In this document: piece after piece, positions 9,726 through 28,876 of the stretch | How positions within the stretch are numbered: position 1 is the first letter of the stretch | How the letters are laid out: every line of letters begins with the position of its first letter | NCBI GenBank assembly: GCA_002163155.1 | Contig: MAAO01000004.1 | Coordinates: 1-64,000 of the forward strand | Direction of reading: 5' to 3' | Origin: Halobacteriovorax marinus | Lineage (GTDB): Bacteria; Bdellovibrionota; Bacteriovoracia; Bacteriovoracales; Bacteriovoracaceae | DNA length: 64,000 nucleotides | The notes under the pieces: model-generated | The model's input: the letters and a program-made list of their open reading frames with translations, nothing else | What the model was told of the DNA's origin: nothing | Database searches by the model: none | Translations under genes and position numbers: made by a program

Positions 9726-10102
9726 TGGTGGAGGTGGCGAGAATCGAACTCGCGTCCGAATTAATTTCTATAGAGCGGACTACGTGCGTAGTCTACGGTT
9801 ATCGTCAGTAGACAAGACTGTCCGAGATACGCGACCTCGACAAACCCCATTCGTTTTTTGAGATGGTTTTCATGGCAGTTCCATCAAGCCCGTTTTATTT
9901 GTGGACTTACCAAGGTTGCTTACTTTTTGTTATCGGTGTAAGCCCCTCATGCTTTATGGTTTTGCTTATTAAGCAGCCATTGGCATAGCGAAATCGTTCG
10001 ATTTAGCAATTATGGTTTGGGCTCCTTTTTACCAGGACCTTGGAGACCAACCTGGACACGCCCACAAAATTTCCAGTAACCCGTCGAAACCAGGGCACCC
10101 CC
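9726..10102 (-). ncRNA. ssrA: Transfer-messenger RNA (tmRNA)
   Basis: About 377 nt on the minus strand. The 5' end GGGGGTG pairs with CACCTCC at the 3' end (one G-U), followed by ACCA, so CCA is encoded. The 5' segment has the diagnostic TGGTTTCGACGGG and the 3' segment the T-arm GTTCGATTC. The tag frame lies at 9966-10007 and reads AKSNDFAMPMAA before tandem TAA stops; the resume codon is GCT. tmRNA rescues stalled ribosomes with SmpB, whose gene is at 42831. The 3' end is a common site for integration of mobile DNA, in keeping with the disturbed genes on that side. Confidence 0.95.
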
Positions 10103-26313: not shown

Positions 26314-26351
26314 TTTCACAAGTTGTGAAATCATTGATACAACTCTTGTGA
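26314..26351. promoter_or_regulatory. Overlapping palindromes, candidate operator
   Basis: TTTCACA-AGT-TGTGAAA (26314-26330) is a perfect palindrome. TTCACAAG (26315-26322) is repeated inverted as CTTGTGAA (26344-26351). The spacing suggests two or three binding sites for a dimeric regulator, about 100 bases upstream of the gene at 26446. Confidence 0.5.
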
Positions 26352-26376
26352 ATTTTGATTTACGACTTTAATCCAG

Positions 26377-26438
26377 AAAGTTAGCTTGTGTTTAGACAAG
26401 TAACAAACACAGCTCGTAACGAGCACTAACTTTAGGAG
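26377..26438 (+). promoter_or_regulatory. Three-way-junction-like structured leader
   Basis: P1: AAAGTTAG (26377-26384) / CTAACTTT (26426-26433), 8 bp perfect. P2: CTTGT / ACAAG (26385-26400), directly adjoining P1. P3: GCTCG-TAA-CGAGC (26412-26424). The Shine-Dalgarno AGGAG begins at the base after P1. The layout of three helices closing on the ribosome site resembles a riboswitch or protein-binding leader. Confidence 0.55.
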
Positions 26439-26445
26439 AATAAAA

Positions 26446-26970
26446 ATGAAAACACTTTTAATTCTAGTAGCTACACTTTTAGTATCTGCAACTGCTTCTG
26501 CACACATGCCAACTGAATCTGATTCTTGGAAAACTATCCGTAAGCATTACTCAAAAGTTATCGTTGACGAGCCAAGTGTTAAACTTGACGGTGGTCCAAT
26601 GACTTCTGCATTTTTTGTATGTAAATCAGGTGACGTTCTTAGAACTCTTAAGAAACTTACTAAATGTGTTAAGTGGGACAATAGAAGAGGCGGAAACAGA
26701 GACAATGACAGACGTGTTTGTGTTGAAGAAGTAAAATACTTTGGAACTGCAGTTATCGAAGGTCAAAGAGAAAGATGTGTTAGCTGGCGTACAATAAGAC
26801 GTGGTGACGACAGAGAAAGAATCTGTACTGGTTACGAGTCTTACGATTATACTCTTGCATTATCTCACAACGTAGACGTTTTCAGAATGGAACGTGGTGG
26901 TAGAGACAATGATAACAGAAGAGGAAGAAAACTTTTTACAAAGACTCTCTCAATCGAAGATTGCGAATAA
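26446..26970 (+). CDS. Secreted Arg-rich hypothetical protein
   Basis: 174 residues. Ribosome site TAGGAG. Signal peptide MKTLLILVATLLVSATASA. The mature protein has at least six Cys and several Arg/Asp/Asn-rich patches (RRGGNRDNDRR, RRGDDRERIC, RDNDNRRGRK). Codon use looks like the highly expressed class (many GTT, GGT, CGT codons), and a UUCG terminator follows. The structured leader suggests post-transcriptional control. Family not recognised. Confidence 0.65.
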   Translation: MKTLLILVATLLVSATASAHMPTESDSWKTIRKHYSKVIVDEPSVKLDGGPMTSAFFVCKSGDVLRTLKKLTKCVKWDNRRGGNRDNDRRVCVEEVKYFGTAVIEGQRERCVSWRTIRRGDDRERICTGYESYDYTLALSHNVDVFRMERGGRDNDNRRGRKLFTKTLSIEDCE

Positions 26971-26981
26971 TAGTGTGTGAT

Positions 26982-27009
26982 AAAGGTCCTTCTTCGGAAG
27001 GGCCTTTTG
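26982..27009 (+). terminator. Rho-independent terminator with UUCG loop
   Basis: AAAGGTCCTTC pairs with GAAGGGCCTTT (one G-U) around a TTCG tetraloop, followed by T. It separates the secreted protein from the regulator gene. Confidence 0.85.
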
Positions 27010-27043
27010 TTGTATGCACGAAACTTTTAACTTAACGAGAATT

Positions 27044-27901
27044 ATGAAAGAAACGGTAGAACAACCAAGAATTTCAATATTTGATTTCGAAAATTATCGA
27101 GATTTTCTTATTAAGGTCGGCATGCCCGATGGTCTCTACTCGCATACTTCAAACAATCTTCAAACTTGGGCCAAGCGCTTAGGTTACAAATCTCCCAGTT
27201 CATTAACAATGGTTTTAAAAGGTCAAAGATCTCCCAGCTTCGAAATGGTAGGAGCTCTCTCAGAAGATCTAGGAATGAACACCAAAGAGAGAACATTTTT
27301 TCAACTTCTCATTCAATTAGAAAAAGCTATAAAGAAAAATAAAGACCCTAAAGAAATTCTAGAAAAAATCGAGAAATTAAATTCTGATAAGCATTCAATA
27401 TCTCTTGGTTTAAAAGAATTTTCCGCCATCAGTGAATGGTACTTCCTCACTATAAAACAACTTATTTCAACACCATGTTTTATTGAAGATGAAGATTGGA
27501 TCTTTAGAAAGTTAAGAAAGAAAGTCACTCCTTCACAAATTAAAAATGCCATCTCTATCATGTTAGAAATGGAAACAATTGGAAGAGATGAGACAGGAAA
27601 GTTAGTCGTTCTAAAAGAAGGTCTCGTTACTACAAATGATGTACCAAGCTCTGCTATTAAGAGACACCACTTTGGTATGATTAACAGAGCACTTGAGGCG
27701 ATTGAAGAACAAGATGTGAAAGACAGACAAGTCACTTCCATCACAATGAAAATAAAAGAAGAAGATTTAAGCGCTGCAAAGAAAAGTATATTTGAATTCA
27801 TCAAAGATTTTAATGAAAAGTTCTCAACAACAGAAGCAGATGAACTATTCCAGATGAATATGCAATTTTTTAAACACACCAGAGAAGTTACTAAACAATA
27901 G
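27044..27901 (+). CDS. TIGR02147 family regulator
   Basis: About 285 residues from the ATG at 27044; an earlier ATG (27014) lies inside the terminator region and is less likely. The family begins with a short FDFENYRDFL segment, then an HTH (SPSSLTMVLKGQRSPSFEMV), a helical region with LGMNTKERTFFQLLIQLE, and a C-terminal DUF4423-like domain (SEWYFLTIKQLI; AEDL-type VTSITMKIKEEDL). The family is expanded in Fibrobacter and Bdellovibrio-like bacteria and is usually next to secreted proteins; here it is 9 bases from one. Regulation of that neighbour is inferred. Confidence 0.85.
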   Translation: MKETVEQPRISIFDFENYRDFLIKVGMPDGLYSHTSNNLQTWAKRLGYKSPSSLTMVLKGQRSPSFEMVGALSEDLGMNTKERTFFQLLIQLEKAIKKNKDPKEILEKIEKLNSDKHSISLGLKEFSAISEWYFLTIKQLISTPCFIEDEDWIFRKLRKKVTPSQIKNAISIMLEMETIGRDETGKLVVLKEGLVTTNDVPSSAIKRHHFGMINRALEAIEEQDVKDRQVTSITMKIKEEDLSAAKKSIFEFIKDFNEKFSTTEADELFQMNMQFFKHTREVTKQ

Positions 27902-27910
27902 GGAATCATT

Positions 27911-28876
27911 ATGAGAAATGCCACATTTCTAGTGCTATTGCTTTTGTCTAATATCGTCAGCGCTGTTGAGATAATTAGAATCGAAAAACCAGAAAGAGAA
28001 ATCTTAAATATAAAATTTGACCGTACCATTCTTCCTTTAATCGAAAGATTTGGTTCAGGAGATATCGTTGGAAACGGCGGAGGGCTTCTTGAGCAAAATT
28101 TCATGCTCGCATACCATAGTCTACAAGCATCAATTGAAAATTGTCTTACTAACGTAGATTGCTTCACTTCAAGAGATCAGAAAATGGTTCTCAAAGAAAT
28201 CAATCAACTTATTATCAAAAAAATTGATCAAACGAATCCCATTATCTTTTTAAAAAATAAAGATGCAAATGGATTCTTCCTTGACGAGTTTGATATGACA
28301 GAACGAATGGCAAAAACAGGTTATTCTGAGAAACATCCAATTTTTATCAACTTAGATATTGCTAAAGAAATTAAGAACGATATTCCCTCAATGCTAGGAA
28401 TATTAATTCATGAACTTGGACACCAAATTGGAATCGCCAACCACAGTTTCCTTGATAGCCTAGGGGCGAAAGTCAGAAGAATCTGGAGTTCGAATTGGAC
28501 TGTCTCAGATATTAAAATTGGACCATTGAAACTTTCTACGCGTCTCTTTAGTAACAAATCAAACTTCATTAACGCAAAACTTAGTTATGAATTTGACGGT
28601 CAAATAAAGAGCATAAATTCTCAAATTTTTGATTCTATTAGTTGCCCAACAGGTGAACAACTTTATGGATTCTATCTAACAAATGGTCACTGGCAGAGAT
28701 TACAAGAATCGGGACGAAGAACAATGGCCAAGATGACTTTCTGGTTAGATGTTTACTGTCAGAATCTCTATGGAGATCTCTACCCTATTCAAAGAGATTT
28801 AAACGTTCTCTTTAAATTTCATACTAAGAGATCAAAAGACCCAGTTCTTAGGTCAGTTACAGTAGAAGTAGAATAA
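27911..28876 (+). CDS. Secreted metalloprotease-like protein
   Basis: 321 residues with a signal peptide (MRNATFLVLLLLSNIVSA). It contains a zinc-type HELGHQIGIANH (H-E-x-x-H plus a later His one residue off metzincin spacing). SLDS-like and four Cys follow in the C-terminal half. It sits in an operon with the TIGR02147 regulator. I infer a secreted zinc protease, but the remaining fold is not recognised. Confidence 0.6.
   Translation: MRNATFLVLLLLSNIVSAVEIIRIEKPEREILNIKFDRTILPLIERFGSGDIVGNGGGLLEQNFMLAYHSLQASIENCLTNVDCFTSRDQKMVLKEINQLIIKKIDQTNPIIFLKNKDANGFFLDEFDMTERMAKTGYSEKHPIFINLDIAKEIKNDIPSMLGILIHELGHQIGIANHSFLDSLGAKVRRIWSSNWTVSDIKIGPLKLSTRLFSNKSNFINAKLSYEFDGQIKSINSQIFDSISCPTGEQLYGFYLTNGHWQRLQESGRRTMAKMTFWLDVYCQNLYGDLYPIQRDLNVLFKFHTKRSKDPVLRSVTVEVE

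Follow-up and report, generated by a model that had tools for sequence, protein, structure and literature searches.

A structured leader RNA, partly conserved in close relatives, in front of a secreted-protein operon of Halobacteriovorax marinus

In 5' untranslated regions (UTRs) of the ompA type, a stem lies near the 5' end of the mRNA, before the strong Shine-Dalgarno sequence (SD) of a gene for an exported protein. The leader described here shares with them the strong SD and the gene for an exported protein, and its stem would likewise lie near the 5' end, whereas its SD is predicted to be paired with the 5' end and the sequences are unrelated. Stem-loops of the ompA type are treated in a review on mRNA stability (PMC7509114). 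The second group of comparable elements are SD-occluding leaders, i.e., translational riboswitches and ribosomal-protein leaders, with which the present leader has in common a junction-like fold and a closing helix that adjoins the SD or runs into it; it differs from them in that it is without a known ligand and without a ribosomal-protein gene, is found in one gene family only, and changes its interior between genera. The ompA-type stems and the SD-occluding leaders are its nearest working analogues, and the leader itself is real but narrow, and cis-acting.

The window analysed (a stretch of 64,000 nucleotides of H. marinus) is part of contig 15 of a 4.55-Mb genome, and the features of the locus are given in Table 1. 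As originally predicted, the gene behind the leader encodes a secreted Arg-rich protein and is followed by a UUCG terminator. Neither Pfam nor NCBIfam yielded a match at threshold for the 174-aa protein, no relative of it was found in the PDB, and its AlphaFold model (pLDDT 52.8) is too poor for a structure search; its close homologues exhibit 46-71% identity. In most homologous loci the gene is adjoined by the TIGR02147 regulator, which (as TIGR02147/DUF4423) receives scarcely any mention in the open papers searched, and most loci also possess a second secreted protein, which carries the motif GDxVGNGGGL (own copy at 27911-28876). The order of secreted protein, TIGR02147 regulator, and second secreted protein extends over 26446-28876 in the window and recurs in the loci L002-L010, L018, L019, and L024. 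The second secreted protein of this genome additionally contains HELGHQ, as in zinc peptidases. A terminator hairpin between the first and the second gene is also seen by eye in several relatives; with such a terminator, expression of the secreted protein would greatly exceed that of its regulator.

Table 1. Positions in the window of the leader elements and of the features surrounding them
Feature	Position	Strand	Basis and remarks
Tripartite DNA operator TCACA-nnn-TGTGA-N18-TGTGA	26316-26351	+	exact pattern search; promoter region
Inferred promoter TTGATA, 17 nt, GATTTA	26334-26362	+	sequence; similar letters in L002, L004, L005, L006
UCC, predicted to pair with GGA of the SD (P1 extension)	26372-26374	+	predicted pairing, depends on transcript start
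P1 closing helix, 5' strand AAAGTTAG	26377-26384	+	sequence and fold; 8 bp with 26426-26433
P3 hairpin, 5' strand TGTGTTT	26387-26393	+	fold; 7 bp
P3 hairpin, 3' strand AAACACA	26405-26411	+	fold
P2 hairpin GCTCG-TAA-CGAGC	26412-26424	+	fold and compensatory changes across 9 homologues
P2 arms GCTCG / CGAGC	26412-26416 / 26420-26424	+	5 bp
P1 closing helix, 3' strand CTAACTTT	26426-26433	+	sequence and fold
SD AGGAG	26434-26438	+	sequence; slight variants in homologues
Gene for 174-aa secreted Arg-rich protein, conserved Cys	26446-26970	+	signal-peptide-like start
Intrinsic terminator, UUCG loop, between first and second gene	26982-27007	+	11-pair stem
TIGR02147 / DUF4423 helix-turn-helix regulator	27014-27901	+	E 4.3e-37 (TIGR02147); 4.8e-36 (PF14394)

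The predicted architecture of an 8-bp closing helix with two inner hairpins is found in this sequence, in which P1, P3, and P2 are all present. The minimum free energy of the 62-nt leader is -16.3 (z -2.63), whereas dinucleotide shuffles average -9.8 and 3 of 200 of them do equally well. Taken alone, this constitutes moderate evidence for the fold, and the comparison with relatives therefore matters. Homologues of the gene were found in 17 of the 98 genomes searched, with one further close homologue (L056) coming from a family search; their upstream regions were oriented before comparison, and nine relatives were compared. The relatives with a name are Halobacteriovorax, Bacteriovorax, and other Bacteriovoracaceae.

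Six loci (L002, L004, L005, L006, L018, and L019) have GTTAGTTT in common, with one letter off in L018, and likewise possess CAGA and an A-rich block ending in AAC; the P2 hairpin, AACTAAC, and the SD are all kept in them. L007 and L003 share the leader features in part only. Much of the leader architecture is lost in L003 and L056, the sole remnant in the latter being a GTTAGG/CCTAAT stem before the SD, and the leaders of distant homologues are unrelated. As regards the conserved junction bases to be looked for according to the original prediction, CAGA and AACAC between P1 and P2 are conserved within the genus, but the interior is lost outside the closest loci. Concerning P1, the core GTTAG/CTAAC is identical in all six same-genus loci, and L018 exhibits a C-A mismatch; judged from these letters, the helix is conserved in the genus, with too little variation for a proof by covariation.

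The pairing variants of P2 among the homologues are GCTC/GAGC, GTTC/GAAC, GCCC/GGGC, ACTC/GAGT, and ATTC/GAGT. In an alignment trimmed to the P2 hairpin, and hence leaning towards the hairpin, 97.2% of the cells are paired, both sides have changed in three of the four pairs, and the covariation score exceeds that of all 500 shuffles and of every slid version; when the register is set by hand such that L002 fits as well, the count is 36/36. The free search serves as a check on this alignment, and the pooled stem length of P2 that it gives is matched by 1 of 5000 shuffles. The compensatory changes on which the original prediction was made to depend are therefore present, since P2 covaries across nine homologues. 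For P3, 46 of 5000 shuffles match the pooled value, most of which comes from this genome, and the hairpin is firm only here and in L002. The compact three-way junction accordingly holds for this sequence but not as a general layout; as a conserved general feature it was rejected, the P3 pairing of the relatives being little above that of shuffles. The structured leader is thus real, with partial conservation among close relatives, and it adds a leader RNA with covariation to the small number of such elements described from marine predatory bacteria.

The putative promoter, together with the position of the operator, would place the transcription start at about 26369-26371, i.e., a few bases before the UCC; this promoter is rated weak because a scan for the sigma-70 consensus did not report TTGATA-17-GATTTA. 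With a 5' end at 26369, the UCC is predicted to pair with the GGA of the SD, whose G, G, and A are unpaired at 0.05, 0.01, and 0.09, respectively. If the 5' end is placed at 26376, the UCC/GGA pairing is predicted to be largely gone and both G of the GGA to be open, and in a transcript from 26377, the first base of the leader as first delimited, the SD is predicted to be free. The SD had been described as directly following the closing helix, which is correct as to its position, but in a transcript that includes the UCC the prediction makes it part of a lengthened P1. As in SD-occluding leaders, the SD is paired in the predicted ground state, in dependence on the start site; in L002 the UCC is absent.

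The explanation to which we give about even chances is that of a gene-specific 5'-UTR fold tuning translation and/or mRNA lifetime. A structured 5' UTR of about 75 nt, private to one operon, would fold with P1 closing and P2 inside, P3 being added in this species, and its UCC would pair with the GGA of the SD and thereby lengthen P1. This extension would close the 5' end and partly hide the ribosome site, and would thereby set the rate of translation, the lifetime of the mRNA, or both; on this reading, an effect on mRNA lifetime would be probable. A 5' stem of the ompA kind that stabilises the mRNA constitutively, and would protect the transcript only and leave the SD open, appears rather unlikely. 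The leader stem would lie at the 5' end if transcription starts at about 26369-26371, a position for which the promoter scan gave no confirmation, and the strong SD, the terminator directly 3' of the gene, the two G opened by a 5' end at 26376, and an architecture free to vary in relatives (e.g., L056) would all agree with such a stem; however, the SD is predicted to be occluded for just these starts, and the covarying P2 together with the genus-conserved CAGA and AACAC suggests more than any stem.

Concerning SD pairing in the family as a whole, pairing with partners located 30 nt or more upstream has a mean of 0.57 in 23 homologues compared to 0.23 in shuffles (combined p about 4e-7; 0.001 for the 12 distant loci), and distant pairing stands at 0.63, versus 0.34 for a set of 25 window genes that includes this one (p 0.006). 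Total SD pairing is hardly above that of shuffles (0.73 vs. 0.68; combined p 0.02 in the test of 23 homologues), such that only the pairing with distant partners is enriched, not total pairing. The test is post hoc, and as the idea was conceived after viewing these folds and the loci are related, SD pairing is a lead and not a result. We regard it as improbable that throughout this operon family of predatory bacteria pairing between the mRNA 5' end and the SD is kept as a structure while the sequences involved are not conserved, and that a signal of the predatory cycle opens the closure; if true across the family, the closure from 5' end to SD would constitute a simple translation control of secreted proteins without conserved sequence.

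The leader might also be bound in trans, by a small RNA or an RNA-binding protein, for which the genus-conserved CAGA and AACAC between P1 and P2 would be suitable; no partner was found, however, and the operon's own secreted product would exit the cytoplasm, which makes this very unlikely.

Within the genus, the tripartite operator is restricted to this operon. Exact TCACAnnnTGTGA-N18-TGTGA occurs once in each of five genus genomes, always before this operon, and genome G010 contains three copies, at its three homologues (loci with the pattern: L047-L052, L054, and L055); a control with the reversed pattern gave 0 matches. The only exact copy outside the operon family (L053, genome G006) is situated in what looks like a replication-origin region, where TTATTCACA boxes are repeated, and is probably due to chance. 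With up to two mismatches, there are 11 places in the own genome versus 4 for the reversed control, and the sole place with one mismatch is inside a gene, such that no clear wider operator regulon is evident. From its adjacency, the operator may be the binding site of the TIGR02147 protein encoded downstream, and via TCACAnnnTGTGA-N18-TGTGA transcription is probably controlled separately from the leader. The leader is tied to an operon family with a TIGR02147/DUF4423 regulator whose likely DNA site is now testable. Given this strong operator just upstream, the inverted repeats of the leader, which also fit DNA binding, could themselves act as DNA and form part of the regulator's operator, the RNA fold being incidental. 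This is hardly likely, as P2 remains paired although its letters vary freely, a pattern more in keeping with RNA than with recognition by a sequence-specific protein, and the TGTGA half-site is absent from P1 and P2. TGTGAA half-sites are also situated ahead of several of the more distant homologues, and one of the places at which they occur is next to the TIGR02147 paralogue that is closest in this genome (L040).

Concerning distribution, a covariance model built from six of the leader sequences scores its own six with E-values of 1e-15 to 2e-9 and L019, which had been left out, with 5e-5. Among 59 whole genomes, all its matches below E 0.002 belong to this gene or to the paralogues in G004 and G010; the next two matches are not leaders, one being inside a coding region (L031) and the other not ahead of a gene (L032). 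The covariance-model search proposed with the prediction thus recovered the leaders of this gene and its paralogues, but nothing wider in the 59 genomes. At threshold, Rfam reports a tmRNA alone in the window and nothing in 12 homologous loci, and with lax E-values no convincing match is obtained; a known Rfam riboswitch class was rejected, since no class model reaches its gathering score. The freshwater-2 RNA (RF02980), a cis-regulatory element, matches 26364-26448 in full length, up to the start codon of the gene, whereas P1 is not the counterpart of its first stem; as the score of 26.5 bits falls short of the gathering score (49.9) and 0 of the 12 homologous loci yield a match, membership was rejected.

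This single-gene distribution and the Rfam result at threshold argue against a regulon-type riboswitch, as does the interior not being kept outside the closest loci, and a ribosomal-protein leader does not fit an operon composed of two secreted proteins and a TIGR02147 regulator. The layout had originally been likened to translational riboswitches and ribosomal-protein leaders; with a single, non-ribosomal gene family, no Rfam class at threshold, and neither P3 nor the interior kept outside the closest relatives, such an assignment is not supported, and the leader looks more like a private control of translation or stability than a widespread metabolite sensor. A ligand-sensing translational riboswitch, in which the interior (GTTAGTTT, CAGA, and AAACAC) would bind a small molecule and P1/SD pairing would be the switch, would accord with the unpaired letters conserved in the genus, the covarying P2, and the predicted SD occlusion, but is highly improbable in view of one copy per genome before the same gene family, no Rfam family at threshold, an interior lost in L003 and L056, and a gene encoding neither a transporter nor an enzyme of a known pathway. 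A leader peptide was likewise rejected: a 13-codon GTG frame is present at the junction here and in L002, is absent by eye from L006 and L018, and has no SD before it. The tmRNA gene of the window (RF00023, 137.7 bits) is situated at 9726-10102 on the minus strand.
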